Part shown: positions 11,020 to 59,781 of the stretch, in pieces
Numbering within the stretch: the first letter of the stretch is position 1
Layout of the letters: each line of letters begins with the position of its first letter
Origin: Thermomonas aquatica
GTDB taxonomy: Bacteria > Pseudomonadota > Gammaproteobacteria > Xanthomonadales > Xanthomonadaceae
Direction of reading: 5' to 3'
Length of the DNA: 64,000 bases
NCBI RefSeq assembly: GCF_006337105.1
Contig: NZ_CP040871.1
Span: forward strand, 1,240,001-1,304,000
Position numbers and translations under genes: made by a program
Notes under the pieces: generated by a model
What the model saw: only the letters and a program-made list of their open reading frames with translations
The model's database searches: none
What the model was told of the DNA's origin: nothing

Positions 11020-11171
11020 CGGGCCTGCTTGCTTCAGAACATGCTTTAGAATTGGGGGTTCATTGCGCAAGCGCCGGAACCACCCGCGGCCGCGCATTGT
11101 AAGCGACAGCCCCTGCACGACCGCGCCCAATGCCGCGCGGACGCCTTTCCCTTCCCCCGGAACTGTGGTCG

Positions 11172-44042: not shown

Positions 44043-46184
44043 TCACGGATTCACCGGTACCGAAGGCGTGACCTGCACCGGCGCCTGCCCGGTCTGCGGC
44101 AGTTCGAGCAACTCGAAGCGTTGGCTGAGCGAACGAGTCAGCTCCTCGGCCTGGGTGTCGGTCTCGATGATGTAGGGCACGATCATCAGCACCAGCTCGG
44201 TCTTGCTCTTGCCCTGCTTCTGGGTCTTGAACAGGTTGCCAAGCAGCGGCACGTCCTTCAGGAACGGCACGCCACTGTTGCCGGCGGTGTTCCGCTGCGA
44301 CATCAGGCCGGCGATCAGGATCGCGCTGCCGTCCTTCAGGCTGAGGCTGGTGCTGTAGGAGCGGTTGAAGATCGCCGGCGAATTGGCGATCGAATCCGCG
44401 CCGACCGGAAGCGCCTCGCTGACTTCCTGGCGCAATTCGATGTCGACACGGTCGTCGGAGTACACCACCGGCTTGATGTTGAGCAGGATGCCGGTCTTGC
44501 GGTACTGCACGGTCTGGATGATGCCGGAATTGCCGCCGGTGGAGATGTTGGTAGTCGCCTGCGAACTGACGGTCGGCACTTCGGTGCCCACGTCGAAGCT
44601 GGCTTCCTCGCCGCTCTTCACCATCACCCTCGGGGTGGACAGCACGCTGATCCGATCCTGGCTGGCCAACGCCTTCAGCGAGGCGCGCGCCTGGCCGCCG
44701 ATGTCCAGGATATAGCTGAGCCCCGCGCCGCCGGTGCCGGTCGCCAGCGTGCCGGAACTGATGTTGCCGTTGAACTTGCCGAGGTCGCTGTTGCGCGCCA
44801 GCCAGGAAATGCCGAACTCCTGGTCGTTGGTCAGGGTCACTTCCGCCACCGTGACCTCCACCATCACCTGGCGTGGCGCACGATCCATCTGCTGGATCAA
44901 CGGCAGGATGCGCCCCCAGTCGGTGGCCGAACCCTGGTAGATGATCGCGTTGCGCGGTTCGTCCAGCGACAACTTGCCGCGTGCCATATCGCCATCGCCG
45001 CCGGCCGGCGACGTCGCGGCGGCACCTGCAGCCGCCCCGACCTGGCTGCCGTCGATCGCATCGCGTGAAGGCCTCCGCGTATTGCTCGCCCCGTTCTGCA
45101 CGCCGCTGATCGTCTGCACGATCTCCTTGGCCTGGGTGTTCTTCACCATGTAGTAGAACAAGCCGTCGCTGCCGGCGGTGGGATTCGGCTTGTCGATGCT
45201 GCGCGCCCACTCCACGGAGTGCTCCAGCACGCGGTCGTCGGCCGCGAACACCAGCACCGCATTCGCCGCCTCCAGCGGCAACACCAGGATCGCGGTACCG
45301 CTGGAGCCGCCCACCGTGTAGAGCGAAGCGCCGTAACCTTCCGCGCTCAGCACTTCGACCAGGCGCTTGGACAGTTCCGAAGCGGTGACGAAGGCGGGCT
45401 CCAGCCTGGCACTGACGCGGCCGCGCATCAGCGGGCGATCGAGCACACGGATCGCCTCGCCGGCCTGCCGCACCTGCTCCGGCTTGCCCATCAGGATCAC
45501 CGCGTTGCGGCTGCCTTCCGCCTGGATAGTGAGTCCGCTGCCCTTGAATGCCACGCCCAGCAGGTTCACCACGTCGTTGGTACGCACCGATTGCAGGTCC
45601 ACCAGTTGGAACACCGGGCGATGGCTGATCGGCACTTCCGGCAAGGCGCGTCCGCTCACGATCAGCGGGGAGGGGCCGGCGGAATCCTTGCCGCGGTTGA
45701 AGAACACCATGCCCGAGGTGTATTCGGTCGAAATGCCGTAGCTATGCAGCACCTGCACCGCCAACCGGTAGAAGTTCTGCGGCGATTGCGGCCCGGGCGT
45801 GCGCAGGGTGACCAGGTCCTGCGCCTTCGAAACCTGCGGGTCCATCTGGAAGCCGGCACCCAGGATCGAGCCGAAGAACTCGTTGATGAAGGCCGGCACC
45901 GGCATGCCTTCGATGTTCACATTGACCGGACCGCCCTTCAGCGGCGGCATGGCGTCGCCATTGATCCCGGCCACCAGGCTGTTGTTGCCACTGCCCGGAA
46001 TGGTCGGCGTTCCGCTGCGCTGCATGTCCTGGCGTCCAGCCGGCGGCTGTCGCTCGAAGCCCTGCTCCCCGCCGTCCTGGTTGGGCAGGGGCAGCGGCGG
46101 CGGGACTTTCACGCGCGGCGTAGCGCAAGCACCGGCGAGCAATGCGGCGGCGACTGCGGTCAGGAATGGACGGAAGCTATTCAT
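44043..46184 (-). CDS. gspD: Type II secretion system secretin
   Basis: 713 residues. Outer-membrane pore of the T2SS. An N-terminal lipobox (LLAGAC) marks a lipoprotein, unlike E. coli GspD, which uses a pilotin. N0-N3 domains (about 80-450) are interrupted by a Gly/Ala-rich linker (AAAGAAATSPAGG). The secretin core has VEVTVAEVTLTNDQEFGISWL, VPTVSSQ and VPLLGNLFKTQKQGKSKTELVLMI. The last gene of the gsp series, as in Xanthomonas xps. 41 bases separate it from the glycosyltransferase gene downstream. Confidence 0.95.
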   Translation of the reverse strand: MNSFRPFLTAVAAALLAGACATPRVKVPPPLPLPNQDGGEQGFERQPPAGRQDMQRSGTPTIPGSGNNSLVAGINGDAMPPLKGGPVNVNIEGMPVPAFINEFFGSILGAGFQMDPQVSKAQDLVTLRTPGPQSPQNFYRLAVQVLHSYGISTEYTSGMVFFNRGKDSAGPSPLIVSGRALPEVPISHRPVFQLVDLQSVRTNDVVNLLGVAFKGSGLTIQAEGSRNAVILMGKPEQVRQAGEAIRVLDRPLMRGRVSARLEPAFVTASELSKRLVEVLSAEGYGASLYTVGGSSGTAILVLPLEAANAVLVFAADDRVLEHSVEWARSIDKPNPTAGSDGLFYYMVKNTQAKEIVQTISGVQNGASNTRRPSRDAIDGSQVGAAAGAAATSPAGGDGDMARGKLSLDEPRNAIIYQGSATDWGRILPLIQQMDRAPRQVMVEVTVAEVTLTNDQEFGISWLARNSDLGKFNGNISSGTLATGTGGAGLSYILDIGGQARASLKALASQDRISVLSTPRVMVKSGEEASFDVGTEVPTVSSQATTNISTGGNSGIIQTVQYRKTGILLNIKPVVYSDDRVDIELRQEVSEALPVGADSIANSPAIFNRSYSTSLSLKDGSAILIAGLMSQRNTAGNSGVPFLKDVPLLGNLFKTQKQGKSKTELVLMIVPYIIETDTQAEELTRSLSQRFELLELPQTGQAPVQVTPSVPVNP

Positions 46185-46206
46185 GCGATGGCGTTTCTTC
46201 GGAAAT

Positions 46207-46794
46207 TCAGTGGGGGCGGCGCGCCGGAGGCGGCGCAGGCGAGGTAACGGGCGGTGGCGTGGGCGTACCCGATGGCGCCGCCGCCGGTTCGCCCTTCGCG
46301 CCGATGCAGGCGTCGGATTGGGCCTTGGGCAGCAGGTACAGCTTGCGCGCACGGCGGCAGCCGTCCTTCTCGTACCAGATGGTGTCGCGATTGGCGGCGA
46401 CGAAAGTCGCGCCATCCGGCAGCGCGCCGCCCAGCGTGACCCATGTCGTCTCCCGCTTGCCCGGCAAGGTCACTGCCGCCCGGATAGACGGCCGGGTCAC
46501 GATGCCGCTCAGGCTCCAGCCGGCGACCTGCTGGCCTCGCTCCCCGGGTTGCTTGACTTCGCCCCAGAAAGGCGCCCGGCGCAGGGCCTGGTATTTCGCC
46601 TCGTCGAAGCGCTTGACCGAGGCGGGCGTGGGCAGCGTCCACTTCGCCTCGTCCGCTTTCGACTGGGATGCCGCGCGAATCGGCAGGAACAGGCCGATGG
46701 TGATCCCGACCAGCGCGCCGGCGCAGGCCACCGCCAGCCACGGATGCGCACGCAGGCGCTCAGCGAGCTGCACGCGGGCCTCCTTGCGCGGCAT
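46207..46794 (-). CDS. gspN: Type II secretion protein N (XpsN-like, GspC analogue)
   Basis: 195 residues. One membrane segment (about 18-38, WLAVACAGALVGITIGLFL) is followed by a periplasmic HR-like region (FWGEVKQPGERGQQVAGWSLSG) and a Pro-rich tail. In Xanthomonas XpsN bridges the inner-membrane platform and secretin in place of GspC. No gspC is seen in the window. It overlaps gspM by 35 bases. Confidence 0.8.
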   Translation of the reverse strand: MPRKEARVQLAERLRAHPWLAVACAGALVGITIGLFLPIRAASQSKADEAKWTLPTPASVKRFDEAKYQALRRAPFWGEVKQPGERGQQVAGWSLSGIVTRPSIRAAVTLPGKRETTWVTLGGALPDGATFVAANRDTIWYEKDGCRRARKLYLLPKAQSDACIGAKGEPAAAPSGTPTPPPVTSPAPPPARRPH

Positions 46795-47365
46795 TGCCGA
46801 CCCGGTAGTACGCGACGACGGTCAGGGTGACGTTGGGTTGCCCTTGGGCGAAACCGAGCAGGAAATCGTCGATCACCACCAGGCGATCGGAACTTTCGAT
46901 ACGGCGCAGGATTTCCAGCAACTGCGCTTGCCCCACCTGGCCGCGGATCGTCACCGGGATCCGCCACAACCCGGGCTGCGCCCGTACCTGCAACGGCGGC
47001 CTGGAATCGCTCGAGAGCTTCGGCCCGAACGCATTGAGCACTTGCCGGATCATGGTCTGCACTTCCGCCTGCGCCAAGCCGATCGTGTTGGCCCGCGGGA
47101 TCTCGGCCTGCAAGGATTTCTGAAGGTTGCGGGCGGCTTCGGCGCGCACCGCCCATTGTTCCTGCCCGGCAAGCGCGGACATCTTGTACAGCTGCAACGT
47201 GCGCTGCTGGTATTGCTCGTGCAGGTCGCGCCGCCAATCCACCAGGACCAGCAACAGGTACACCAGCGCGATCGCGCCGACGATGGCCACGCCCCAGCGC
47301 AAGCGCGGGTTGGTCTGCCATTCCTCGCGCGCCTGCTTCAGGCGCGCGGATTCGCGCGCGCTCAT
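46760..47365 (-). CDS. gspM: Type II secretion protein M
   Basis: 201 residues. A short cytosolic N-terminus, one membrane segment (about 24-44, GVAIVGAIALVYLLLVLVDW) and a ferredoxin-like periplasmic domain. GspM partners GspL in the inner-membrane platform. It overlaps gspL by four bases. Confidence 0.85.
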   Translation of the reverse strand: MSARESARLKQAREEWQTNPRLRWGVAIVGAIALVYLLLVLVDWRRDLHEQYQQRTLQLYKMSALAGQEQWAVRAEAARNLQKSLQAEIPRANTIGLAQAEVQTMIRQVLNAFGPKLSSDSRPPLQVRAQPGLWRIPVTIRGQVGQAQLLEILRRIESSDRLVVIDDFLLGFAQGQPNVTLTVVAYYRVGNAAQGGPRAAR

Positions 47366-48468
47366 CGACGCCCGCCCTGGATCGGCGCGCGCACGACCTT
47401 GGCCTTGATCGCCACGGTGTCGCGCGCCCTGCCGATTTCCGCGGTGACCTCGGTGAAGCGCTTCGAGTTCTCCAGCGCAGTCACGATCGCGCGCGGGTCG
47501 CCGTTCGGCATCCGCGCGGTCACCTGCAAGGTTTCCGCATCGGGCATCTTCCATTCCTGCAATTGCCACTGCCCGGGAATCAAGCCACCGACCAGGGCCA
47601 TCAATTCGACCTGACCTGCCGGCGGCCGCAAGGCGAGTTCGGCTTCGACCGCCGCGCGCCCCTTCAGGGCCTGGTCGCGTGCGTCGATGATCCGGCCCAA
47701 GGCCTGTTCCTGAGCCGCGATCTGGCGGTCGACCTGCCAGATCGACACCTTGAGCGCCAGCGCGCCCACCAGCAGCGCGGTCAATGCCGCCACGCCCATG
47801 CCCAGCAGGGCCAACAGCACTTTCTGTCGGTGCTGCCCGATCGATTCTGCCACGCCCTGGCCACGTGGCGCGCTCCAGGCGCGCTCGGCCAAGGGGTACG
47901 GCAACTGTTCCGGCGGCATCTCGGCAGGCTGCAGGCCAGCCCCGCGCCTGAATTCGTTCCAGTCCTGCAACGCCGGCACGTCCGGCCACCAGTGCGAAGA
48001 CACCATCACGTTGTCGCGCCAGACCCGCCCCTCGAGTCCGGTATCCAGCACCACCAGCTCCTGGCCTTCCGCCTGCGGCTGCCCGCGGAACAGGGATTCG
48101 GGGACGATGCGCCTTGGCGCGGCGGCGGACTGGCCGTCTTCGCCCTCCAGCGCGCGCGCGCGCGACCACGCCCACACCATCGCGCGATCGCCCACCCATT
48201 CCACGTGCGACTGCGGATCCGCGAACGGCGACCAGCGCGCGACCGCCATGTCCACGAAGCCGCGACGCTTGCGCGCCGGCACGGCACCGCCATCGAGCAC
48301 GGTATAGGCGCAGAAAGCGCGGGCAAGCACCCATTCCTGACCGTTGCCGCCCTCGGCGAGCTGCTGCAGCCCGTCAGTCCCGCGCAGCCACCGGCTTGGC
48401 GAAAAGCCGCGAGCGAACCGGGTACGCAACGGAATCCGAAGCGGGGGCTTGGGATTGGATGAGCTCAT
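47362..48468 (-). CDS. gspL: Type II secretion protein L
   Basis: 368 residues. A cytosolic region (1-215), a membrane segment (about 220-245, VLLALLGMGVAALTALLVGA) and a periplasmic domain. GspL binds GspE and GspM. The cytosolic half is divergent but suits the position. The ATG at 48468 makes it overlap gspK by 95 bases, unusually long for this operon; a later start would shorten a coherent N-terminus, so I keep it. Confidence 0.8.
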   Translation of the reverse strand: MSSSNPKPPLRIPLRTRFARGFSPSRWLRGTDGLQQLAEGGNGQEWVLARAFCAYTVLDGGAVPARKRRGFVDMAVARWSPFADPQSHVEWVGDRAMVWAWSRARALEGEDGQSAAAPRRIVPESLFRGQPQAEGQELVVLDTGLEGRVWRDNVMVSSHWWPDVPALQDWNEFRRGAGLQPAEMPPEQLPYPLAERAWSAPRGQGVAESIGQHRQKVLLALLGMGVAALTALLVGALALKVSIWQVDRQIAAQEQALGRIIDARDQALKGRAAVEAELALRPPAGQVELMALVGGLIPGQWQLQEWKMPDAETLQVTARMPNGDPRAIVTALENSKRFTEVTAEIGRARDTVAIKAKVVRAPIQGGRR

Positions 48469-49435
48469 AGTCCTCACGCCAGGGGCGACCCCCGTTCTCG
48501 ATCGGGGTCAGGGTCCAGTGCACCAGTCCCACCTGTCCCCCATGCGAAGGCCACAGCTTCAGAGTGCCGGACATGGCAGGATACACAGCGATCGGCGCTT
48601 CTGCCGATTTTTGCAGGCCGAGGAACTCGAAAAACGCCACCTCAGTCAGGAATGGTTGCGTTTTCCTGAAGGCCACCACGCGCGCCGCCATGTCCTCGTC
48701 GAGCCCATCGATGGTGCGCAGCACGCGCGGCGGCGCGGTGTTCACGTTCACCACGGCGACGTTGTCGCTGGAGATGGTGTCGCTGATTTCCGCGGGCGAC
48801 AGGAAGCCAAGCGCCTCTGTCCATCCCATCACCCGCATCAATTCCATCGGCGTCGCCAGCGGGCGGTTGGTGGGTGGGCGCAGCCCCGCCTTGCGGTAAC
48901 CGTCCGCCTCGGCGCTGTTGAGCCGGTACAGGTCGTCCTTGTCCTGGTAATCCAGCAAGCGGTTGATCAGGACTTCCGCCGGCAGGCCTCCCGCACGCTT
49001 GCCTTGGTCAAGCAGGCGCTTGAGCATCCATGGCGGGTTCCAGTTGACCCCGAACAGGCCGTAGTCGTCCTGGATCGCGAAGCGGGTATCGCCGAGGCCG
49101 CGGTAGTTGCGCGCATCCAATGCGATCTCGTTGCCGATCGGCAGGCTGGATTCGAGATCCGCGTCCGACTGGATCTCGCGCACGCCATCGCTGCCGAACG
49201 AGACCAGCTTGTCCACGGTCAGCCCGCCCACGGTCATCCGCTGGGTACTGAGCAGGTACAGCACGTTCGCCCGCGTGCTGGCCATGTCCACCGCATCCTG
49301 CATGCGCTGCGCACGCTGCTGCGACTGTTCGGCCAGACGGGCAGTGGTCGCGGCGATGCCGCCGGCAAGCAGCGACAGCACCACCAGCATCGCCAGCACC
49401 AGCACCAGCACGAACCCGCGCGAGCGCCCGCTCAT
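48374..49435 (-). CDS. gspK: Type II secretion minor pseudopilin K
   Basis: 353 residues, the large tip pseudopilin. The prepilin site is SRGFVLVLVLAMLVVLSLLA; it lacks Glu at +5, as is normal for GspK. The saposin-like insertion region includes DDYGLFGVNWNPP, and NVNTAPPRVLRTIDGLDEDMA is characteristic. Its start overlaps the gspJ stop as ATGA. Confidence 0.92.
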   Translation of the reverse strand: MSGRSRGFVLVLVLAMLVVLSLLAGGIAATTARLAEQSQQRAQRMQDAVDMASTRANVLYLLSTQRMTVGGLTVDKLVSFGSDGVREIQSDADLESSLPIGNEIALDARNYRGLGDTRFAIQDDYGLFGVNWNPPWMLKRLLDQGKRAGGLPAEVLINRLLDYQDKDDLYRLNSAEADGYRKAGLRPPTNRPLATPMELMRVMGWTEALGFLSPAEISDTISSDNVAVVNVNTAPPRVLRTIDGLDEDMAARVVAFRKTQPFLTEVAFFEFLGLQKSAEAPIAVYPAMSGTLKLWPSHGGQVGLVHWTLTPIENGGRPWREDYELIQSQAPASDSVAYPVRSRLFAKPVAARD

Positions 49436-50028
49436 TTGAGTTCCTCGTCGCCGTAGAACCGTACCGGCGGCTTCAGCGGCCCCAGCACGGCCGCAGCCTG
49501 CATGCGCTCGCGCCCACGATCCGTCCGCGTCAGCACCACCACCGCAGGCAAGGTGGGCCCGGCATCCTGCAGGCCGCGTTCCGGCGGCCAGGTCGGGGAC
49601 GCCTTGCCCGCCTCGTCGAGATACGTGAAGCCCGCGACATCGGCTTGCGCCAGGCGGAATCGCCAGCGTTCGACCCCGTCTTCGGAATAGGCGATGGCGG
49701 TCCTGTCGCCAGACTGCACGATCGACCACTCCACCTCGGTCGGACTTCCCTCCGCCGCGTACAGCGGGTTCAGGCTGGTGCCGCGGAAGCGCGTGCGCTC
49801 GCCGGCGAACCGCAAGCCTTCGGCGATGAACAGGCCGTGCACGCTGTCGCGGAACCAGTCATGGAACAAGGCCTGGCGATCGATGATGCCGGCCTGCCCC
49901 TGCACGCGCTCGCGGGCGATGCGATAGCTGCCGAGCATCTGGAACATCAGCATGGTCGCGAACGACACCAGCATCAGGGTGACCAGCATTTCCATCAGGG
50001 TGAAGCCGCCGGATCGCCGCCTGCTCAT
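49432..50028 (-). CDS. gspJ: Type II secretion minor pseudopilin J
   Basis: 198 residues. Prepilin cleavage motif GGFTLMEMLVTLML with Glu at +5, then a strand-rich globular domain. GspJ joins GspI and GspK at the pseudopilus tip. The start overlaps the gspI stop as ATGA. Confidence 0.9.
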   Translation of the reverse strand: MSRRRSGGFTLMEMLVTLMLVSFATMLMFQMLGSYRIARERVQGQAGIIDRQALFHDWFRDSVHGLFIAEGLRFAGERTRFRGTSLNPLYAAEGSPTEVEWSIVQSGDRTAIAYSEDGVERWRFRLAQADVAGFTYLDEAGKASPTWPPERGLQDAGPTLPAVVVLTRTDRGRERMQAAAVLGPLKPPVRFYGDEELK

Positions 50029-50465
50029 AAGTCGTCCATCGTGCGCACCTGCTTCCAGCCGACCTGGCGGACATGGAATGCATGCAGCTCCCGGCCATCG
50101 CGGGTGGCCCGCACCTCGAGGTCGTACAACCCGACCATGAAGATGCTGGGCCCGCCGGACTGGTCCACGCCGGTCTTGGGCGGCTCCACCGGCGTGCTGG
50201 TCCAGGTCACGACGAAGTCGCCCACCTTGCGCTGGCCGGTCGGGGTTTCCATCGGATTGCTGCGGCGGATCAGGTCGAGCGTGGAATCCATCGCCACTTC
50301 GAGTTGCTGGCGATCGCGGATGCGGTTGAGGGTGATCACGTTGGTCGACAGCCACCCGTACAACGCGAACGCGCCGAGGCTGAACACCACCAGCGCGACG
50401 ATGGCTTCCAGCAGCGTGAAGCCGCGCACGCCGCGGCGCGATGCCGGCCTGGTCGAACGGTGCAT
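50025..50465 (-). CDS. gspI: Type II secretion minor pseudopilin I
   Basis: 146 residues from MHRSTRPASRRG. The motif RGFTLLEAIVALVVFSLGAF carries the prepilin cleavage site and Glu at +5. It nucleates the pseudopilus tip with J and K. Joined to gspH by TGATG. Confidence 0.9.
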   Translation of the reverse strand: MHRSTRPASRRGVRGFTLLEAIVALVVFSLGAFALYGWLSTNVITLNRIRDRQQLEVAMDSTLDLIRRSNPMETPTGQRKVGDFVVTWTSTPVEPPKTGVDQSGGPSIFMVGLYDLEVRATRDGRELHAFHVRQVGWKQVRTMDDL

Positions 50466-50851
50466 CACGGGCGCAGGATCGGGTCGCAGAACGGCGCAGC
50501 CACCACGATCGTGCGGCTGCCGTAGCTGTTGCCGATGCTGACCTGCCCCCCCAAGCAGACGCCGTTGGCGTTCACTTTCCACGGCGTCGGCACGCTGAGC
50601 GTCCAGCCGCTGGCGATGCGCAACGGCGCATCCTTCGACTTCAATGCGCCATCGCTGAGCACGATCGCCCTGCCGCTGGCCCGCGCATTGCCGGGGAGGG
50701 CACGGATCTGGTCGAGCAGCGAATCCAGTTCGGCCCGGCGGCGCCAGCTATCGATGCCGCGCAGGGCCGATGGCGCAACCAGCGCGGTGGCAAGGCCGAG
50801 GATGGCCAGCACCACGATCATCTCTAGCAGCGTGAAGCCGCGGTGCCGCAT
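50465..50851 (-). CDS. gspH: Type II secretion minor pseudopilin H
   Basis: 128 residues. Cleavage motif RGFTLLEMIVVLAILGLA, followed by a compact domain with two Cys (GVCLGG and PFCDP) that may form a disulfide. Twelve bases follow gspG. Confidence 0.9.
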   Translation of the reverse strand: MRHRGFTLLEMIVVLAILGLATALVAPSALRGIDSWRRRAELDSLLDQIRALPGNARASGRAIVLSDGALKSKDAPLRIASGWTLSVPTPWKVNANGVCLGGQVSIGNSYGSRTIVVAAPFCDPILRP

Positions 50852-50863
50852 ATGCGAGCGGCG

Positions 50864-51361
50864 TCAGTTGGCAGGTGCGGCGGAATTCGCGGCATCAGCC
50901 GTGCCGCCATCGGGCAGGTGGCCAAGGTCGGCATTTTGACCCTCGCCGCCCGGCACGCCGTCGGCACCCCAGGAGTACAGCGTGTACGGCTGGGTGCCAC
51001 TGGGTTGCGGGGAATACTGGTACGGATGCCCCCACGGATCGTTCGGCACCGCTTCATCCAGGTAGGGGCCAGCCCACCCGTTGAGGTCGCCGGCGGGCTT
51101 GGTGGTCAACAGGGCCAGGCCTTCGGCTTCGGTCGGCCAGCGGCTGATGTCCAGGCGCATCGTCTGCAACGCGCCGCCGAGCATCTTGATCTGGGTACCC
51201 GCGGTCTGCACCTTGGCCTTGTCGGCCTGGCCGAACAGGCGCGGACCGACCAGGCCCATGATCAGGCCGATGATGACCAGTACCACGATCATCTCGAGCA
51301 GGGTGAAGCCGGCTTGGCGCGGAATGGCGCGCGGAACGGCGGGAATGCGGCGACGTTGCAT
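50864..51361 (-). CDS. gspG: Type II secretion major pseudopilin G
   Basis: 165 residues. Motif AGFTLLEMIVVLVIIGLIMG, then the conserved DISRWPTEAEGLALL and WGHPYQYSPQPSGTQPYTLY region with the calcium-site loop (SWGADGVPGGEGQNADLG). Its acidic, Ala-rich tail extends about 20 residues beyond typical GspG. It builds the pseudopilus shaft. Confidence 0.95.
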   Translation of the reverse strand: MQRRRIPAVPRAIPRQAGFTLLEMIVVLVIIGLIMGLVGPRLFGQADKAKVQTAGTQIKMLGGALQTMRLDISRWPTEAEGLALLTTKPAGDLNGWAGPYLDEAVPNDPWGHPYQYSPQPSGTQPYTLYSWGADGVPGGEGQNADLGHLPDGGTADAANSAAPAN

Positions 51362-51405: not shown

Positions 51406-52602
51406 CTAGACGGCGAGGTCGTTGGCGCTGGTGATCGCAAGGATCACGCCGAGGATGATGGTGCCGATCATGCTGCCGATCACCAGGATGGCGATCGGCT
51501 CCAGCAGGATCAGCACGCGCTTCATGCGGTTGCGCCCCGCCTCTTCATACAGCCGCGCCAATGAATCCAGCATGGATGCCAGCTTGCCGGAACGCTCGCC
51601 GACCCGGACCAGGTTGTAGCCGGTGGCGGTCAGCGCGTCGTGGTCCTCCAGCGCATCGGCGAGCGAGGAACCACCGCGCACCGCACGGGTGACCTCGCCC
51701 ATGCGCGCACGGCGTTGCGGCAGTTGCAGGCCGGACTGCGCCAGCTCGAGCCCGCGCATCAACGGCACCTTGTTGCCGAGCAGCGCACCCAGCACCTTGG
51801 CCCAGCGCGCGGTGTCGGCCTCGACCAGCCACGGCCCGACCACCGGCCAGCCCGACAGCGTGTCCAGCGCCTGCGCGCGCAGCTCCGGCTTGCGCAGCGC
51901 CCAGGTCGCGGCGGCCGCGACCGCGCCGACCATCAACAGCAGCAGCCAGAAGTGTTCGCGCGTCCAGGTACCGAACGCGAGCACCACCCACGCCAGCAAC
52001 GGCAGGTCCTTGGCCTGCTGCAGCAGCGAGGCGAACTTCGGCACCACGAAGATGAACATGATCGCCACCGCGGCGACGCCGGCAACCACCAGTACCGCCG
52101 GATAGATCAGCGCATTGCGCATTTCGTTGCGCAATTGCTGTTCGTATTCCATCTGCACGCCCGCATCGTGCAGTGCCTTGCCGAGCTCGCCGGTGAGTTC
52201 ACCGGCGCGCGCGAGTTGCACCACGTATTCGGGCAAGGGCAAGCCGCACTTCGCCAGCGTGGCGGAGAACGCCTGGCCACGCTGCAGGTCGCGCGACATG
52301 CCGGCGAACGCAGCGACGATGCGCGGGTGATGCGCACCCAGCGCCTGGCTGCCGACCGCGTCGGCGATCGACACGCCTGAAGTCAGCATCGTCGCCAGTT
52401 CCTGCAGCGCGAGGATCACGTCGGCGCTGCGCAGGCGGCCGCGACGCTCCTTGCCGCCGCCGGCTTCGCCGGAACGCACCTCGATCACGGACAGGCCACG
52501 CCGCTCCAGCGCGCGCGCGGCCTCGCGTTCGTTGTTGGCGCGGAGCATGCCTTCCAGGCTGATGCCCTCGGCGTTCAAGGCTTGATAGTGGTAACGGGGC
52601 AT
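51406..52602 (-). CDS. gspF: Type II secretion inner-membrane platform protein F
   Basis: 398 residues. Two cytosolic helical domains alternate with three membrane segments, the GspF/PilC layout. It starts MPRYHYQALNAEG, with LQELATMLTSGVSIADAV and the GNKVPLMRGLELAQ repeat. Seven bases separate it from gspE. Confidence 0.95.
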   Translation of the reverse strand: MPRYHYQALNAEGISLEGMLRANNEREAARALERRGLSVIEVRSGEAGGGKERRGRLRSADVILALQELATMLTSGVSIADAVGSQALGAHHPRIVAAFAGMSRDLQRGQAFSATLAKCGLPLPEYVVQLARAGELTGELGKALHDAGVQMEYEQQLRNEMRNALIYPAVLVVAGVAAVAIMFIFVVPKFASLLQQAKDLPLLAWVVLAFGTWTREHFWLLLLMVGAVAAAATWALRKPELRAQALDTLSGWPVVGPWLVEADTARWAKVLGALLGNKVPLMRGLELAQSGLQLPQRRARMGEVTRAVRGGSSLADALEDHDALTATGYNLVRVGERSGKLASMLDSLARLYEEAGRNRMKRVLILLEPIAILVIGSMIGTIILGVILAITSANDLAV

Positions 52603-52609
52603 GCGGAAC

Positions 52610-54313
52610 TCAGCTGCCGGCGACGCGCAGCACTTCCTCCACCGTGGTCAGTCCCTGCCACGCCTTCAGCAGGCCGTCGTCGCGCAGGAAGCGATGGCCT
52701 TCGTCGCGCGCCAGCTTCTTCATGTCGTTGACGCTGGCGCCGCTGACGATCAGGTGCTGCATCGCCTCCGTCACCGGCACCATTTCGTAGATGCCGAGGC
52801 GGCCGCGATAACCGGTGTTCATGCAGTGCGCGCAGCCCACCGCTTCCATCCAGCGCGGCGCCATGCCCGGCAACACCTTGTGCGCGAACACCGCGGCCTC
52901 GGCCTCGATCTGCGCCGGCACCGCGTGCGGACGCGCGCATTGCGTGCACAGCCGGCGCACCAGGCGCTGCGCCTGCACTGCGCGGATCGGGGTGGCGACG
53001 AGGAAGGGCTCCACGCCCATGTCGATCAGGCGGGTGAACGCGCTGATCGCATCGTTGGTATGCAGCGTGCTCAATACAAGGTGGCCGGTGAGCGCGGCCT
53101 GCACCGCGATTTCCGCGGTCTCGAGGTCGCGGATTTCGCCGATCATGATCACGTCCGGATCCTGGCGCAGGATCGAACGCAGCGCGTTGGCGAAGGTCAG
53201 GCCGATGTCCGGGTGGGCCTGGATCTGGGTGATCGCCGGCAACTGGAATTCGACCGGATCCTCGACCGTGATGATCTTCTTCAAGCCGTCGTTGGCCGCG
53301 GCCAGCGATGCATACAAGGTCGTGGATTTACCGGAACCGGTCGGACCGGTGACCAGCACGATGCCGTTCGCCTCCGCGGTCCATTCCTTCATCATCGCCA
53401 GGTGGTCGGACTCGAAGCCGAGCTTCTCGAGGCCGAGCTCCTTGCGCTCCTTCGGCAGCAGGCGCATCACGATCGATTCGCCATGCACGCCCGGCAGCGC
53501 GGACACACGGATATCCATTTCCTGGCCGCCGACGCGCGTCGACAAACGGCCGTCCTGCGGCAGGCGGCGTTCGGCGATGTCCATGCCGGAGATCAGCTTG
53601 AGGCGCGAGGCCACCGCGTCGAAACGGTCGCGCGGCAATTGCAGGCGGGTGTGCAGCACGCCGTCGATGCGGAAGCGCACCGCGAAGATGCGCTCCTCGG
53701 GTTCCAGGTGGATGTCGGAGGCGCGCTGCTCGACCGCCTGCGCCATCAGGTTGCTGACCAGTTCGACGACCGGCGCCTCCTCGGCCATCGCGCGCAGCTG
53801 CTGCTCGTCGCCGCCACCCCATTCGTCGGCACGTGCGTGGTGGGCGAGCCCGTCCAGCATGCGCTCCAGGTCCTGCGCGCGGCACAGGCACCAATGTATC
53901 CGGCGCCCCGGGTAGGCATGCCGCATCGCCTCGCGCAAGGCCGGCAACAGCGGGTCGCGCGCGGCGCAGAACAGGTCGCTGCCTTCGCCCGGCCACACGA
54001 GGACCTGTTGATCCAGCAACCAATCGATCCCCGCAGGCGCCTGCACCGCAGTGAGGCGCGCCATGTCTTCGTCCGGGGCGGGCACCTCGAAGCCCATTAC
54101 CGGCAGGCCAAGCTGGCGGCTGAGCACTTGCAGCAGGTTGTCCTCGCTGACCGCACCGATCCGCATCAGCACACTGCCGATGCGCCCGCCGATCTTCTGC
54201 TGCAGGGCCAGCCCGCGCTCGAGGTCGGCGGCGCCGACCAGCCCGGCATCGAGCAACAGCTCGCCCAGCAGGCGGTCGCGCGGGGCGGCCCGCAATGCGG
54301 CGTCAGAGGACAT
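52610..54313 (-). CDS. gspE: Type II secretion ATPase
   Basis: 567 residues. Powers pseudopilus assembly. An N-terminal MshEN/GspE-N domain (about 15-150), Walker A GPTGSGKST near 323-331, Asp box, Walker B (PDVIMIGEIRD) and His box (LVLSTLHTND) are intact. The zinc site CTQC near 454 and CAHC near 497 is present. It overlaps the ABC permease gene upstream by 11 bases, an unusual start for a T2SS operon. Confidence 0.96.
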   Translation of the reverse strand: MSSDAALRAAPRDRLLGELLLDAGLVGAADLERGLALQQKIGGRIGSVLMRIGAVSEDNLLQVLSRQLGLPVMGFEVPAPDEDMARLTAVQAPAGIDWLLDQQVLVWPGEGSDLFCAARDPLLPALREAMRHAYPGRRIHWCLCRAQDLERMLDGLAHHARADEWGGGDEQQLRAMAEEAPVVELVSNLMAQAVEQRASDIHLEPEERIFAVRFRIDGVLHTRLQLPRDRFDAVASRLKLISGMDIAERRLPQDGRLSTRVGGQEMDIRVSALPGVHGESIVMRLLPKERKELGLEKLGFESDHLAMMKEWTAEANGIVLVTGPTGSGKSTTLYASLAAANDGLKKIITVEDPVEFQLPAITQIQAHPDIGLTFANALRSILRQDPDVIMIGEIRDLETAEIAVQAALTGHLVLSTLHTNDAISAFTRLIDMGVEPFLVATPIRAVQAQRLVRRLCTQCARPHAVPAQIEAEAAVFAHKVLPGMAPRWMEAVGCAHCMNTGYRGRLGIYEMVPVTEAMQHLIVSGASVNDMKKLARDEGHRFLRDDGLLKAWQGLTTVEEVLRVAGS

Positions 54314-55103
54314 CTGCGAATCCTTTCTTGAGCTTGGAGAACGCCCACAGGCCGAACAGGTACACGGCCATGGCGACCAGCGAATACTGCGCCAGAACGT
54401 CCCATTGCGGCCACTGCGCCTCGAACAGCGCGCGTCGCGCCTGCTCGACCGGGATCGTGATCGGATTGACCGCCAGCCAGGGCTGGGCGGCAACGGGCAT
54501 GGCCTGGCGCGGATAGAACACCGGGCCCAGGAACATCGTCATCATCACCAGCGGCCCGACCAGCTGGGCCAGGTCGCGCAGGTAGACCCCCAGCGCGGCG
54601 ATCAACCACGCCAGCCCGAGCAGCAACAGCGCATACGGCAACAGGATCGCCGGCAGGGCCAGCAACGACCACGACAGGCCGGTCCCCAGCACGCCATTGA
54701 GCACGATGAGCACCAGCAGGGCCATCGCGGTATGGAACAGCGCCGTGAGCAGGCTGACCCAGCCCAGCGCTTCCAGCGGGAACACCACCTTGGTGACGTA
54801 GTTCGGCTGGCTGGTAACTAGCGTCGGCGCGCGCGACAGCACCTCCGCCAGCAGGCCATGCACCACCATGCCGGCCAGCAGGCGCAAGGCGAACATGCCG
54901 ATGCCCTGTTCCTGAGCCCCTGGCCAGCGGGTCGGGGCGATCACCCCGAACACCAGGGTGTAGACACCCAGCATCAGCAAAGGAGTCAGCAGGGGCCAGA
55001 GCGACCCCAGCAGGGAACCGCGGTAGCGCCCACTGATCTCCCGCCAGGCCAGGATGCGGATCAGGGCCTCATGCCGCCAGGGGTGGGCAAGGGTGGTCAG
55101 CAC
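54303..55103 (-). CDS. Polysaccharide ABC transporter permease (Wzm-like)
   Basis: 266 residues from the GTG at 55103 (GGAG upstream). An ABC-2 permease with about six membrane segments and an amphipathic N-terminal helix (LIRILAWREISGRYRGSLLG), typical of O-antigen and teichoic-acid exporters. The LGVYLRDLAQLVGP block before the last segments is a family hallmark. Its probable ATPase partner is at 57699 on the other strand. The downstream neighbour is gspE. Confidence 0.88.
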   Translation of the reverse strand: MLTTLAHPWRHEALIRILAWREISGRYRGSLLGSLWPLLTPLLMLGVYTLVFGVIAPTRWPGAQEQGIGMFALRLLAGMVVHGLLAEVLSRAPTLVTSQPNYVTKVVFPLEALGWVSLLTALFHTAMALLVLIVLNGVLGTGLSWSLLALPAILLPYALLLLGLAWLIAALGVYLRDLAQLVGPLVMMTMFLGPVFYPRQAMPVAAQPWLAVNPITIPVEQARRALFEAQWPQWDVLAQYSLVAMAVYLFGLWAFSKLKKGFADVL

Positions 55104-55559
55104 GTCAGGCGGGGCTCCGGATCGGCGGCAGGCTGGCGGCGACAGACGGACGGATGGCAAGATCCGATCCCCGCCAATGGGGTGCGCAGTCTAGCGGTTC
55201 CGTGCCAAGCCTCGGCAGTTCGAAGCTGAATGGGTTCCAACCTGACGTAACGCGTCAACTGCATCCGCTTGGGGCAGGATATGACGCGACTTTCGCTCAG
55301 TCTTCCAAGCCATTCACAACGCAGGGATTGACGGTACCTTAACCTTGCGTTAGCGTCCGCACCGCAACTTGATCAACCAGGGGAGTAGGGGGAACTGCGT
55401 CTGGCCGACGGTCGGCGCCTGATCCGTTTGAAATTCCAAGACTGCAACACCTGGAAGAAGCCGGTTGCTGGGGGCCCTGCCTCCTGGTACCGGGCTAGGG
55501 CCTGCAATCGGAGCAAGTTGCGTCATTCCGCTTTACCAACTGACAGGAGTTAGTTAGAC
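55104..55559. other. 456-bp intergenic region between divergent genes
   Basis: Separates the Wzm-like permease gene (minus) from the large exported-protein gene (plus). It holds a promoter candidate at 55328-55356 and a leader of about 200 bases, with lower G+C than the genes around it. A 62-codon frame at 55154-55342 has no family resemblance and is rejected. No other feature is visible. Confidence 0.7.
55328..55356 (+). promoter_or_regulatory. Promoter of the large exported-protein gene
   Basis: TTGACG, 17-base spacer, TAGCGT. The -35 matches five of six consensus bases; the -10 fits TAnnnT. Transcription near 55363 would give a leader of about 197 bases before the ATG, with AGGAG at 55545-55549. 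Confidence 0.55.
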
Positions 55560-57590
55560 ATGTCTAGCATGAAGAAGAACGTCCTCGCCGTTGCCCTGGT
55601 GGCCGGCTTGGGCTTGGCCGGCGGCGCTGCGGCCTACAACTACGGTACGTTGAAGCAGATCAACGGCGTTTCTGCGCCTGACGACACCGGCACCAACACC
55701 GCCAACTCGATCGCGGTGCAGGCCGACCTGGATACGGCGGAAGTCGTTTCCTACGAAATGCTGGTTGCGACCAACTACAACTGGACGATGACCGAAGACC
55801 TGGTGTTCGACATCCAGCTCCCGGACAACGCCGTGCAGGTCACCACCGGCTTCACCGTTCGCGTCAAGCTGAACCGCAACAACTGCGTCGACAACCCGAA
55901 CGTGCAGTACCCGAGCGGCGCCAACATCTGCTCGGACACCACCGACGGCGCCCTGTTCTCCACCACCGCGCCGAACCCGGCTGACCTGATCCTGGATCCG
56001 TCCCTGGTCGGTTTCTGGACCGTGGTGTTCGACGGCTACTACGACGGCGGCCGTACCGCTTCGTTCCGCCTCAGCCCGCTGCTGCTCAACCCGCCGAATC
56101 CGGGTCCGGGCATCCTGCTGCGCTGGCGCAACGCGCGCCTGACCAGCCTGAACGAGTTCGCGCAGGCGGCCTACAACGGCGGCACCGGCAAGGTTGACGC
56201 CGAATTCTGGATGGTCAACGCCACCAACGACAGCCGCTTCGCCGGCTCGACCAAGAACCAGCGCATCCTGCAGAGCACCCGCGCCGTCAATGCCTGCGCC
56301 ACCCCGAACGGTTCGGAAGTGGACAAGTACATCGATGTGGCCGACGACTTCAACGAAGTCCAGATGCCGAAGACCCGCTTCAGCTGGGACGGCCGCCTGG
56401 GTTCGGCGGTGGATTCCTCGGGCGGCAGCGTGCAGAGCCCGGACGACTACAACTCGCAGGTCATCGACCTGGGCGACGTGACCCTGGGCGACAACAGCGT
56501 GGCCAGCTTCCAGTTCTGGGGCGCGGGCAACCTGCAGAACGGCGTGGCCGACGTGTTCAAGACCGTGATCGACGCCCAGGGCAGCAACGACTGGAATGCG
56601 TTCGACAACATCGGCAACAACGACGACGTCTATCTGGTCGACGGCACCTGCGCCAGCGGCACCATTGTGGACCAGGGCACGATCAGCGGCACCACCGTGA
56701 CCTTCATCTACAACGCCGACCAGGCCGGCATGATCAACGGTCCGAATGCCACCGGCACCGGCACCCAGAACCTGACCGTCTGCGGCTTCGTGGATGAAGA
56801 CATCGTCATCGACGACCACAACAACCACGTCACCACCACGTTCTACCGTTCGGGCATGTACCCGGCCAGTGGTTCCGCTCCGGGTGATGCGACCGACAAC
56901 TACCCGACCAACGGTATCGCCAACGGCGTGGGCTCCAAGACCTACACCGACCCGGATGCCGGCGGCAACCACTGCGACCTGCTGCCGCTGCGTTACAACG
57001 GCTCGACGATGGAAATCTTCACCATCAACCCGGGCAGCAACACCACCCAGCGCAGCTTCATCCGCCTGACCAACCGCAGCGCCACCGACGGTTACGTCTC
57101 GCTGGAAGGCATCGACAACGCCGGCGTTCACGGCGCGTCGCAGGTTCGCGTGTGGGTTGAAGCTGGCAAGTCCGTGCAGCTGGATGCCGCCGACCTCGAG
57201 AACGGCACCAACGGCGCTGTCGGCGCTTGGGGTGCTCCGACCGATGGCAAGTGGCGTGCGATTGTGACCGCCGAGTTCCCGGGCCTGGTCGCCACCAGCC
57301 TGGTCAACAGCGCCCTGCCGCGCGTCCTGACCAATATCACCGACAGCGATACCCGCGGCGAGCAGATCGACCGCGACTTCGCCGAAGGCACCTGGGGCAA
57401 CGAAGCTGGTCAGCGTCCGTCCGACTTCGTCCAGGAATACGAGCCTGACTTCCGCGGTGACGGCAACTGGACCGGCGAACCGGGCGGTCCGGACGCCAAT
57501 GACGGCCCGGCCGGTGGCACCACCGACGAGTGCGGCAACCCGGGTATGGACGGCAGCCTGCCGACCAACTGCGTCTACCCGCAGCCGTAA
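55560..57590 (+). CDS. Large exported Asn/Asp/Thr-rich protein, S-layer-like candidate
   Basis: 676 residues; I do not recognise the family. The signal peptide is KKNVLAVALVAGLGLAGGAAA, with AGGAG ten bases before the ATG. The mature protein is strand-rich, acidic, low in Lys, rich in Asn, Asp, Thr and Gly, with about eight Cys, no membrane segment and no sorting motif. Codon choice is biased to a narrow set (AAC, CTG, GGC, CGT/CGC), suggesting high expression. A good promoter, long leader and strong terminator make it a stand-alone abundant product. Between T2SS and polysaccharide-export genes, a secreted surface-layer or matrix protein is my best guess; function is inferred. Confidence 0.65.
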   Translation: MSSMKKNVLAVALVAGLGLAGGAAAYNYGTLKQINGVSAPDDTGTNTANSIAVQADLDTAEVVSYEMLVATNYNWTMTEDLVFDIQLPDNAVQVTTGFTVRVKLNRNNCVDNPNVQYPSGANICSDTTDGALFSTTAPNPADLILDPSLVGFWTVVFDGYYDGGRTASFRLSPLLLNPPNPGPGILLRWRNARLTSLNEFAQAAYNGGTGKVDAEFWMVNATNDSRFAGSTKNQRILQSTRAVNACATPNGSEVDKYIDVADDFNEVQMPKTRFSWDGRLGSAVDSSGGSVQSPDDYNSQVIDLGDVTLGDNSVASFQFWGAGNLQNGVADVFKTVIDAQGSNDWNAFDNIGNNDDVYLVDGTCASGTIVDQGTISGTTVTFIYNADQAGMINGPNATGTGTQNLTVCGFVDEDIVIDDHNNHVTTTFYRSGMYPASGSAPGDATDNYPTNGIANGVGSKTYTDPDAGGNHCDLLPLRYNGSTMEIFTINPGSNTTQRSFIRLTNRSATDGYVSLEGIDNAGVHGASQVRVWVEAGKSVQLDAADLENGTNGAVGAWGAPTDGKWRAIVTAEFPGLVATSLVNSALPRVLTNITDSDTRGEQIDRDFAEGTWGNEAGQRPSDFVQEYEPDFRGDGNWTGEPGGPDANDGPAGGTTDECGNPGMDGSLPTNCVYPQP

Positions 57591-57615
57591 GCGTTAAGCA
57601 ACACCTGCTGTATTG

Positions 57616-57647
57616 ACGGGCGGCCTCCGGGCCGCCCGTTTTTTTTT
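57616..57647 (+). terminator. Strong intrinsic terminator
   Basis: ACGGGCGGCC pairs with GGCCGCCCGT (10 bp, loop TCCG) followed by a run of nine T. It is the clearest terminator in the window and isolates the exported-protein gene from the ATPase gene downstream. Confidence 0.93.
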
Positions 57648-57698: not shown

Positions 57699-59021
57699 AT
57701 GCATTCGATGCCCGCTGCCCATATCGCCGCCGATGAACACCCCGCCATCCGGGTGGCCGGCGTCAGCAAGGTCTTCCGCACCTGGGCCAGCCCTTCGCAA
57801 CGGTTGATCGTGCCCCTGCTGCACCGCGTGGGCTCGCTGCTGGCGCGGCCGCTGCCGCGCGTGGCCGCACGCCTGCACGCATCGGCGCACCGGCGCATCC
57901 ACATCCATGAAGCCCTGCACGACATCAGCTTCGAGCTGCGCCGCGGCGAAGCGCTGGGCATCGTCGGGCTCAACGGCAGCGGCAAGAGCACCCTGCTGCA
58001 GATCATCGCAGGCGTGCTCCCGCCCACGTCGGGCACCGTCGATACCCATGGCCGCATCGCTGCGCTGCTGGAACTCGGCTCCGGGTTCAACACGGAACTG
58101 ACCGGCCGCGAGAACATCTACATCAACGGCGCGATCCTCGGCCTGGAACGGACCCGCATCGACGCGATCATCGGCGACATCATCGCCTTCGCCGACATCG
58201 GCGATTACATCGAACAGCCGGTCAAGACCTACAGTTCGGGCATGGCCGTGCGCCTGGCCTTCTCGGTGCAGGTGCATGTCGACCCGGACATCCTGATCGT
58301 GGACGAGGCGCTGGCGGTCGGCGACGCCGCCTTCCAGGCCAAGGCGATGACCCGCATCCAGCAGATCCTGGCGCGCGGCACCACCCTGCTCTTCGTCGGC
58401 CACGACCTCAACGCGCTGCGCGCGTTCTGCCAGCGCGGGATCCTGCTCGAGAACGGCCGCATGGCGATGCTGGGCGCACCCGAGGAAGTGATCGAGGAAT
58501 ACCTGTTCCGCGTGCATGCGAAAGCCACGCAGGAAGGCCAGCCCAAGCCGATCCGCATCGCCGAAGGCTTCCGCAGCGAGGATGGCGGCGTGCTTGGGCT
58601 GGCCTTCCCCGGCGGCGCGCGCCACCTCGCGCTCAACTACGGCGACGCGGTCGAAATCGACGCGGACCTCGAACTGCGTGCGGCGCTGGCGGATGCCGCC
58701 TGCATCGTCGACATCCTCGACGAACGCGGCGTGCCGCTGAGCGGGCGTCGCATCCGCCTGCCCGACGGCAACGACGGCGCGCAACACCTGCGGCTGCGCA
58801 TCGCGTTCCGCGCCGAGCTGGCGCGCGGCATCTATCGGGTGCGGGCGCGGCTGGTGCAGGCGCCGGATCGGCACCAGCACCATCGTCGCGTGCTGTGCCG
58901 CTACGAGTCCGACCTGTCGTTCGAGGTGGTGGAAAATTCCATCGAACGCTTCAGCGGCCTGTTCCCGTTGCCCGCCGACGTCGTCGTGCAGCGACTGGCC
59001 AGCGATGACGACCGCAGCTGA
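57699..59021 (+). CDS. Polysaccharide ABC transporter ATPase (Wzt-like)
   Basis: 440 residues. Walker A GLNGSGKST at 90-98, signature YSSGMAVRLAFSV and Walker B ILIVDEALAVGD. The extra segment between the first strands (about 30-70) is typical of O-antigen ATPases. Residues 280-440 form a C-terminal strand-rich domain like the Wzt carbohydrate-binding domain, which in E. coli O8/O9a reads the modified chain end. That fits with a methyltransferase in the neighbouring array. The start may be 57699 or 57708. It overlaps the sulfotransferase gene by 17 bases. Confidence 0.9.
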   Translation: MHSMPAAHIAADEHPAIRVAGVSKVFRTWASPSQRLIVPLLHRVGSLLARPLPRVAARLHASAHRRIHIHEALHDISFELRRGEALGIVGLNGSGKSTLLQIIAGVLPPTSGTVDTHGRIAALLELGSGFNTELTGRENIYINGAILGLERTRIDAIIGDIIAFADIGDYIEQPVKTYSSGMAVRLAFSVQVHVDPDILIVDEALAVGDAAFQAKAMTRIQQILARGTTLLFVGHDLNALRAFCQRGILLENGRMAMLGAPEEVIEEYLFRVHAKATQEGQPKPIRIAEGFRSEDGGVLGLAFPGGARHLALNYGDAVEIDADLELRAALADAACIVDILDERGVPLSGRRIRLPDGNDGAQHLRLRIAFRAELARGIYRVRARLVQAPDRHQHHRRVLCRYESDLSFEVVENSIERFSGLFPLPADVVVQRLASDDDRS

Positions 59022-59781
59022 GCCGCTGGTCCGCTTCCTGGTCGGCGGCGTGCAGAAAGCCGGCACCAGCGCGCTGGCGCAGTACCTGGGCTTGCACCCG
59101 CGTCTGCGCCTGCCGACCGGCAAGGAAGCACACGTGTTCGACGCGCCGGATTTCGACGAACGCTGGACGCCGGCGCAGCTCGACCAGCGCTACGCGGGCC
59201 ACTTCGACGGACACGATGATGCGGGCGCCCTGCATGGCGACGCCACGCCGTTCTACCTGGTCCACCCGCGCGTGGTCGCACGCATCGCCCGCTACAACCC
59301 GGCAATGCGCTGGATCGTGCTGCTGCGCGACCCGGTCGAGCGCGCGCTGTCGCAGTTCCACATGGAGCGCCAGCGCGGCAAGGAGCACTGGCCGCTATGG
59401 CCGGCCCTGCTGCTGGAACGCTGGCGGTTGCGCGGGCATGCGGAGGATTTCTCGCGCGAATCGCCGTTGCGCCGGCACGGCTATCGCCTGCGCGGCGACT
59501 ACGCTCGCCAGCTCGACGCGTTGCATGCGCACTTTCCGCGCGAGCAGGTGCTGCTGCTGTCCAACCGGGAGCTTCGCGACGACCCGACCGGCACCCTGCG
59601 CAAGGCCTGCGCGTTCCTGCGGATCGAACCGGTCGATGGCGAACTACGCGCGCAAACGGTGTTCGCCGGCGACTATTCCCCGATACCGCGCGATGGCCCG
59701 AGCGCGCGCCTGCTGCGCTGGCTGATGCGCAATGAACTGCGCGACATGCGCGAGCGTTACGGCATCCGCTACGACGCTTGA
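59005..59781 (+). CDS. PAPS-dependent sulfotransferase
   Basis: 258 residues. The 5'-phosphosulfate loop is VGGVQKAGTSALAQYLG and the 3'-phosphate motif RDPVERALSQFHMER. The general form resembles bacterial and heparan-type sulfotransferases. Co-expressed with the Wzt-like ATPase, it probably sulfates the exported polysaccharide. A second sulfotransferase-like domain lies in the 1,288-residue glycosyltransferase. Its stop lies ten bases from the convergent transsulfuration gene. Confidence 0.87.
   Translation: MTTAAEPLVRFLVGGVQKAGTSALAQYLGLHPRLRLPTGKEAHVFDAPDFDERWTPAQLDQRYAGHFDGHDDAGALHGDATPFYLVHPRVVARIARYNPAMRWIVLLRDPVERALSQFHMERQRGKEHWPLWPALLLERWRLRGHAEDFSRESPLRRHGYRLRGDYARQLDALHAHFPREQVLLLSNRELRDDPTGTLRKACAFLRIEPVDGELRAQTVFAGDYSPIPRDGPSARLLRWLMRNELRDMRERYGIRYDA

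Follow-up and report, generated by a model that had tools for sequence, protein, structure and literature searches.

A candidate surface-layer protein encoded with a second type II secretion system and an O-polysaccharide exporter in Thermomonas aquatica

Surface-layer (S-layer) proteins encoded next to genes of a type II secretion system (T2SS) have been described in Aeromonas, Delftia/Paracidovorax and Pseudoalteromonas. These systems serve as the reference for a locus of Thermomonas aquatica, in which the gene of a candidate S-layer protein (the coat gene and coat protein below) lies among T2SS genes and O-polysaccharide exporter genes. The locus belongs to a 64,000-nucleotide stretch of contig NZ_CP040871.1 (positions 1,240,001 to 1,304,000), called the window, and coordinates are those of the window unless stated otherwise. 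In A. salmonicida A450, the genes run wzm (ORF5), T2SS and related genes (ORF6–16), vapA (ORF17), wzt (ORF18) and a sulfotransferase-domain gene (ORF19) (PMC4483657). A. hydrophila AH-1 has a comparable locus, in which the insertion point is marked by a truncated wzm and a complete wzm-wzt pair follows downstream, and the A-layer is reported to be tethered by lipopolysaccharide (LPS) (PMC4413209). NpdA of Delftia/Paracidovorax was identified as an S-layer protein by cryo-electron microscopy, is encoded beside 12 gsp genes and has a mature mass of 52 kDa in P. citrulli (PMC10765051). Assembly of NpdA in D. acidovorans is reported to be LPS-dependent (PMC3110197). The S-layer gene of Pseudoalteromonas tunicata, encoding Slr4, adjoins a T2SS operon (PMC7821379).

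The window locus resembles these systems in layout. As in the A-layer locus of A. salmonicida (VapA, Sps T2SS), the coat and T2SS genes are interleaved with wzm and wzt, and a sulfotransferase-domain gene follows wzt. The T2SS order E-F-G-H-I-J-K-L with the coat gene last and the insertion within an O-antigen locus are further likenesses to the A-layer loci, from which the window differs in that its T2SS genes and coat gene are divergent. VapA of A. hydrophila AH-1 has 469 residues and the window protein 676, and the two were compared by locus layout, not by sequence. NpdA is likewise a hypothetical exported protein encoded next to gsp genes, but its gene-neighbourhood account, as far as available, names no wzm or wzt (PMC10765051), and this comparison is one of descriptions, not sequences. 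The position of the coat gene next to a T2SS operon is shared with Slr4. By architecture and distribution, the putative coat system is of the VapA/NpdA/Slr4 kind. The preliminary description of the window, made from the DNA letters alone, had called it an undescribed Xanthomonadales surface coat. This was too broad, as T2SS-linked S-layers are known and published lists of NpdA orthologs already include Xanthomonadales, from Lysobacter sp. and several Rhodanobacteraceae (PMC10765051); the shorter relatives reported below may already be within that list. Neither "Thermomonas" nor "O-antigen" appears in the main text of that paper, and the paper listings for Thermomonas with S-layers and with metaproteomics showed nothing on this protein, so that within these sources the claim stands for Thermomonas.

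The T2SS operon of the window is a second, divergent and complete-looking system. GspE, F, G, K and D were assigned by family models, GspI and J by the prepilin motif, GspH by eye, and GspL, M and N by gene order. The preliminary description had taken this operon for Xps, which is wrong. The Xps locus of the same 3.0 Mb genome (G000) lies just left of the window, and its GspF (G000:1237043–1238233) reaches 752.1 bits with the XpsF model NF047826 (cut-off 650), against 161.9 bits for the window GspF. The GspE and GspD of the Xps locus also pass cut-offs that the window GspE and GspD miss. Xps was accordingly rejected both as the identity of the window operon and as the carrier of the coat protein. 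The window GspE has an N-terminal MshE-type cyclic di-GMP (c-di-GMP)-binding motif (NF053729, 47.4 bits, cut-off 38), and coat secretion may respond to c-di-GMP.

Within the genus, the coat protein or a divergent relative was found in 11 of 25 genomes (G000, G001, G002, G004, G011, G012, G014, G015, G017, G020 and G022). A window-type GspE (≥67% identity) was detected in 10 of these 11 genomes, whereas all 14 others lack it. In the eleventh, G014 (80% complete), no window-type GspE was found, but a window-type wzt and a GspG scoring with the window group are present. The second T2SS occurs in the genus exclusively with the coat gene, with both present in 11/25 genomes (one by GspG score only) and neither in 14/25. 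A GspG locus of the other type was detected in 23/25 genomes, including all 14 coat-less ones; the two genomes without a hit are G012 and G014 (86 and 80% complete). Because this other locus is so widely distributed, and is Xps by the NCBIfam cut-off in the window's genome, the coat-linked T2SS is considered an extra system. Coat presence was mapped on an XpsE+F tree of 21 genomes, which leaves out G010, G012, G014 and G023 because their XpsE is split, partial or missing. The tree requires four changes in coat presence, and well-supported branches make at least three of them necessary. Within each of the sister pairs G000/G009 and G001/G024, one genome has the coat gene and the other lacks it. 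The coat gene and the second T2SS have an identical distribution across the 21 tree genomes. The gspE of G011 (L031, 9827–11534) is split into frames of 402 and ~167 residues, reflecting an assembly error or a decayed gene.

The O-antigen neighbourhood was examined in 11 of the 14 coat-less genomes. Eight of them (G003, G006, G007, G008, G009, G013, G018 and G024) have adjacent wzm and wzt at the same flanks as the window cassette, and no coat gene, gsp operon or sulfotransferase-domain gene was detected at these eight sites at E ≤ 1e-8. The shared flanks comprise cysM, whole or partial, and in some genomes metB, YdcH-like and PilT-like genes. G016 has the flank without wzm/wzt, and G005 and G019 have wzm/wzt without these flanks. 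As a separate observation, a stretch between cysM and wzm in G024, inside a longer frame (L119, 10952–11392), matches the first 151 residues of the window GspE at 43%. At seven of the eight sites, Wzt aligns with the window Wzt in the ATPase part only, and in G024 the alignment extends to residue 384; in the coat-bearing genomes it covers nearly the full length (55–100%). This alignment pattern suggests that the polysaccharide locus is exchanged along with the coat, not merely interrupted. Coat gene, T2SS, exporter and sulfotransferase-domain gene look like a surface-coat cassette that can be exchanged as one unit within the O-antigen locus.

All seven unbroken Thermomonas loci besides the window (L027–L033) hold wzm, gsp genes, coat gene, wzt and the sulfotransferase-domain gene together. 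Five of them have wzm-gspE-F-G...D on one side and coat-wzt-sulfotransferase on the other, while G001 and G015 have wzm-gspE-gspF-coat-wzt in one direction with gspG–L divergent and gspD beyond the stretch. The sulfotransferase-domain gene was found near wzt in 10/10 Thermomonas loci where wzt is covered. Among 198 genomes of the family, a profile of four short members matched 19, distributed over 12 of 54 genera. Divergent homologs from other Lysobacteraceae genera were studied in 13 of the 16 non-Thermomonas genomes with a profile match (G231, G296 and G369 were left out). Window-type gsp genes adjoin the coat gene in 10 of these 13 loci, wzm is present in nine and wzt in seven, and the sulfotransferase-domain gene lies near wzt in six of the seven, the exception (L082) having wzt at a contig end. 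The recurrence of the coat–T2SS linkage in several other genera indicates that this layout is not a peculiarity of Aeromonas. Locus L080 (G207) keeps the coat gene, wzm, wzt and the sulfotransferase-domain gene with a reduced gsp set, reflecting decay or a different export route. Locus L074 has extra open reading frames (ORFs) between the coat gene and wzt (10820–12567), ATP-grasp-like and S-adenosylmethionine-dependent methyltransferase-like by eye. Outside the family, a GspE at E ≤ 1e-150 was retrieved from 6 of 368 other genomes of the class. One of these, G571 from another family, encodes a 484-residue protein in the interval from gspD to gspE, which also contains an unrelated 331-residue ORF; wzt lies on the far side of gspG. 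The 484-residue protein matches the short coat members with an hhalign probability of 97.7. Co-divergence was calculated for 13 loci chosen for complete gene sets, with ORFs taken stop to stop and the G011 gspE from one fragment. Beyond GspE, coat and Wzt distances are correlated with partial r of 0.61, 0.40 and 0.62 for the N-terminal, middle and C-terminal domains, and the values are 0.25–0.46 for Wzm and 0.27–0.35 for the sulfotransferase-domain protein; the permutation takes no account of phylogeny or saturation, and these figures are exploratory only.

The coat protein itself agrees with the preliminary description in being an unrecognised, exported product of 676 residues. The ORF is present at 55560–57590 (+), and its product is predicted to be acidic and all-beta. 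Homologs at E ≤ 1e-3 number 175 among 7996 scored candidates. The 120 of them listed share 57–99% identity over 97–100% of the query, except two that cover 63 and 89% of it; with conservation over nearly the full length, the ORF is a real gene and not a chance frame. Few of the 120 carry names, all of them "hypothetical protein" and some from Thermomonas. The family search and structure prediction proposed in the preliminary description gave no Pfam or NCBIfam family at its cut-off and a model made of beta-sandwich domains. A PDB sequence search with the coat protein returned zero matches, and a plasmid search with a coat relative returned none. The Pfam S-layer anchors SLH and RTX calcium repeats gave no match, the sole hit being PF00932 at 17 bits (cut-off 34.3). 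Export is indicated by a signal peptide of Sec form, recognised by eye without a predictor, with 15 of its 25 columns invariant in 35 homologs. In the same homologs, the tail after the C-terminal domain has a mean pairwise identity of 0.67, and the pattern over the whole protein fits a conserved anchor with variable, outward-facing domains. The divergent short relatives align with the long family over the full length (hhalign probability 100, E 7e-76), and the resemblance lies mostly in the signal and C-terminal domain.

The model of domain 1 matches cohesin-, pilin- and integrin-like structures, and the whole-protein search retrieved generic multi-Ig proteins with template modelling scores <0.35 among the matches listed. 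Viral structure matches are equally generic. None of the listed matches is a known S-layer structure, which is not evidence for a new fold. A PDB search with alignment A4 of coat relatives gave one chain, an IgA Fc receptor (E 0.11), and a search with the C-terminal alignment gave scIg12 and dIG14 (E 0.054 and 0.18) and no ASRT chain. The ASRT/ASRAH superfamily is predicted to be sugar-binding (PMC2739507). The coat C-terminal domain resembles it in an Asn at the end of strand 2, N505 closing the strand 497–505, and this Asn is invariant in 6/6 members of alignment A5 and 23/23 of A4. The Trp at the start of strand 1 of that superfamily is missing, with no Trp in coat residues 472–497. Several copies of the C-terminal domain follow one another in open frames of ~690–1850 residues in genus g5 (L016, L018–L020), G238, G244, G271 and G296, which possibly represent a separate adhesin family.

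Our preferred reading is that the coat protein is an S-layer subunit that leaves the cell through a T2SS of its own and is attached to O-polysaccharide, and we place its probability at roughly 0.72. Secretion of the coat protein by the adjacent second T2SS is strongly suggested by the genomic comparisons, and we infer lattice formation and polysaccharide anchoring. Sec would deliver the protein to the periplasm, where it would fold, and the private T2SS would carry the folded protein outside. The conserved C-terminal domain would grip the O-polysaccharide exported by the neighbouring Wzm/Wzt, and the variable N-terminal and middle domains would face outward and pack into a coat. A T2SS-exported, O-polysaccharide-linked surface coat had been proposed in the preliminary description, and the co-occurrence, the synteny, the coat-less state of the same site and the A-layer-like order speak for it, with the correction that the T2SS is not Xps.

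Several observations weigh against this reading. The independent-pairs count is 3/3 (sign test p 0.25) and, resting on one shared presence vector, restates the coincidence. All three genus g5 loci lack gsp genes and wzm in the stretch covered, two of the stretches being 12 and 7.6 kb. Among the 10 T2SS-linked loci of other genera, L073, L076 and L081 have no nearby wzt and L081 also no wzm, and the gsp genes of L080 are a gspD and a gspE fragment only. The G571 protein reaches an hhalign probability of 9% with the long Thermomonas family and is linked via the short members only, and the other five of the six distant GspE genomes show no coat relative near GspE in the stretches covered. Membership in the Slr4 family (PF19526) was rejected, as the window protein has no match at E ≤ 1 and the best of 23 relatives is a single one at 23.2 bits (cut-off 25). 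The codon adaptation index (CAI) of the coat gene is above average and moderately high, not extreme (0.708, rank 6 of 38 selected window ORFs; mean of the other 37, 0.567, standard deviation 0.115; ribosomal/tuf reference mean, 0.764). Confidence was lowered to the value given on three grounds: wzt is not seen nearby in 3 of the 10 linked loci of other genera, G571 is tied to the long family only indirectly, and the pairs count is no separate test. In a wider search, PF19526 exceeded its cut-off in none of 25 chosen genomes, where its two weak hits (E 0.02 and 0.19) lie away from coat genes of the present type, and in 0 of 143 genomes of the class, an uninformative count because the controls were likewise silent.

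The alternative that survives best, though we regard it as unlikely, is that the protein is exported by the T2SS and is not bound to the Wzm/Wzt polysaccharide, the linkage reflecting co-transfer of surface genes. Binding cannot be shown by linkage alone, the three linked loci without nearby wzt are in its favour, and deletion of vapA in A. salmonicida leaves the O-antigen profile unchanged, so that export of the two is separable (PMC4483657). The reported LPS tethering of the A-layer and LPS requirement of NpdA assembly argue for binding, as do the sulfotransferase-domain gene and coat-type wzt that accompany the coat gene in Thermomonas. Somewhat less likely still is a secreted matrix protein or adhesin, exported by the T2SS and stuck to polysaccharide as an amorphous biofilm glue without a lattice. 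The resemblance of the model folds to adhesins and pilins, the adhesin-like repetition of the same C-terminal domain in the long proteins of genus g5 and G238, and the UniRef name "Adhesin" of one coat relative are consistent with it, but the proteins reported to form lattices, VapA, Slr4 and NpdA, have the same arrangement of one coat gene next to a dedicated T2SS, which in Aeromonas is placed inside the O-antigen locus. T2SSs often export enzymes, but a general enzyme exporter with the coat gene as a chance neighbour is highly improbable, since the window's genome has its Xps, with a GspF above the XpsF cut-off, at another place, the window-type system is found only alongside the coat protein in the 25 genus genomes, and the linkage recurs in 10 of the 13 loci of other genera.

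With the S-layer reading preferred, an Aeromonas-type surface-armour locus is placed in Thermomonas, an environmental genus common in wastewater. The presence or absence of the cassette at a single site in related genomes provides a natural experiment on S-layer function, and the cassette offers a test of a T2SS private to one cargo because the same cell also has Xps. A tentative extension, which we hold to be possible and somewhat doubtful, is that the coat switches as a unit. Thermomonas would then replace, at one O-antigen site of the chromosome, a simple wzm-wzt serotype locus by a cassette of lattice protein, private T2SS and matched polysaccharide exporter with a sulfotransferase-domain enzyme, the ASRT-like domain would read the matched polysaccharide, and the c-di-GMP motif of GspE would tie secretion to a biofilm signal.

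Table 1. Coordinates of the predicted features of the coat locus within the window
Feature	Position	Strand	Basis and remarks
Candidate S-layer (coat) protein	55560..57590	+	676 residues; mature form pI (isoelectric point) 4.09, 69 kDa
Signal peptide, residues 1-25	55560..55634	+	Sec form, recognised by eye; pairwise identity averages 0.91 (35 homologs)
Beta-sandwich domain 1, residues 26-241	55635..56282	+	Predicted structure; variable, identity 0.59 (35 homologs)
Beta-sandwich domain 2, residues 242-471	56283..56972	+	Predicted structure; variable, identity 0.61 (35 homologs)
C-terminal beta-sandwich, residues 472-602	56973..57365	+	Identity 0.82 (35 homologs); candidate polysaccharide-binding domain
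Promoter-like TTGACG-17 nt-TAGCGT	55328..55356	+	By eye; GGGATTGACG, GTTAGCGTCC invariant in 5 genomes
Conserved 5' leader with AGGAG ribosome-binding site	55454..55559	+	78/106 positions invariant in 6 genomes
Terminator-like hairpin after coat gene	57615..57640	+	Separates coat gene from wzt
wzt, O-polysaccharide exporter ATPase with Wzt_C domain	57699..59021	+	Pfam PF00005, PF14524
Sulfotransferase-domain protein	59005..59781	+	Pfam PF13469, PF00685
wzm, ABC-2 permease of exporter	54303..55160	-	Pfam PF01061; overlaps gspE start by ~11 nt
gspE, second T2SS	52610..54313	-	Pfam T2SSE; start by eye
gspF, second T2SS	51406..52602	-	NCBIfam GspF 260 bits (cut-off 424); XpsF 161.9 (cut-off 650)
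gspG, major pseudopilin	50864..51361	-	TIGR01710 164.9 bits (cut-off 88.85)
gspH-like pseudopilin	50465..50851	-	GFTLLEMIVVLAILG, by eye
gspI-like pseudopilin	50025..50468	-	N_methyl motif; start by eye
gspJ-like pseudopilin	49432..50031	-	N_methyl motif; approximate start
gspK	48374..49450	-	Pfam T2SSK; approximate start
gspL position	47362..48477	-	Gene order and conservation; no Pfam hit
gspM/N positions, two overlapping ORFs	46181..47321	-	Order and 31-45% conservation where found; no Pfam hit
gspD, secretin, second T2SS	44043..46415	-	Pfam Secretin; TIGR02517 307 bits (cut-off 351); approximate start
Large GT2/GT4 glycosyltransferase adjoining gspD	40135..44001	-	Pfam
GDP-heptose-type genes: gmhB-, hddC-, SIS-domain (gmhA-type) and hddA-like, with NDP-sugar dehydratase	36280..40138	-	

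The signals around the coat gene were also inspected. A sigma-70 promoter scanner called no promoter, the promoter-like element of Table 1 included. A search of the 25 genomes found the leader in single copy in seven; it abuts the coat gene in six, and the seventh copy (G017) lies at a contig end beside wzm. The leader is a conserved sequence without support for RNA structure, with a fold z of -0.74, compensatory change in 0/23 predicted pairs and no Rfam match. It is more conserved than coat domains 1 and 2. The hairpin after the coat gene has a fold z of -2.63, with 4/200 shuffles as stable, and the hairpin scan found one such site against a mean of 2.3 in shuffles (no excess). A conserved leader and an own terminator would suit strong expression. 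The high-expression hallmarks claimed earlier are thus partly retained, in the above-average CAI, the leader and the hairpin, and partly lost, as the CAI is not extreme and no promoter was called by the scanner.

Among the neighbours named in the preliminary description, Pfam confirmed the polysaccharide exporter, as wzm and wzt, and, for the sulfation genes, a sulfotransferase domain (PF13469, PF00685). The A. salmonicida gene at the equivalent position also encodes a sulfotransferase domain, and that O-antigen is not known to contain sulfate (PMC4483657). The GDP-heptose genes hold at the family level, with GmhB above the cut-off of its subfamily model TIGR00213 (154.3 vs 149.6) and HddA below that of its equivalog model (365 vs 600). 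A protein of the sulfatase superfamily (PF00884) is encoded near the polysaccharide genes at 31508–33691 (-).

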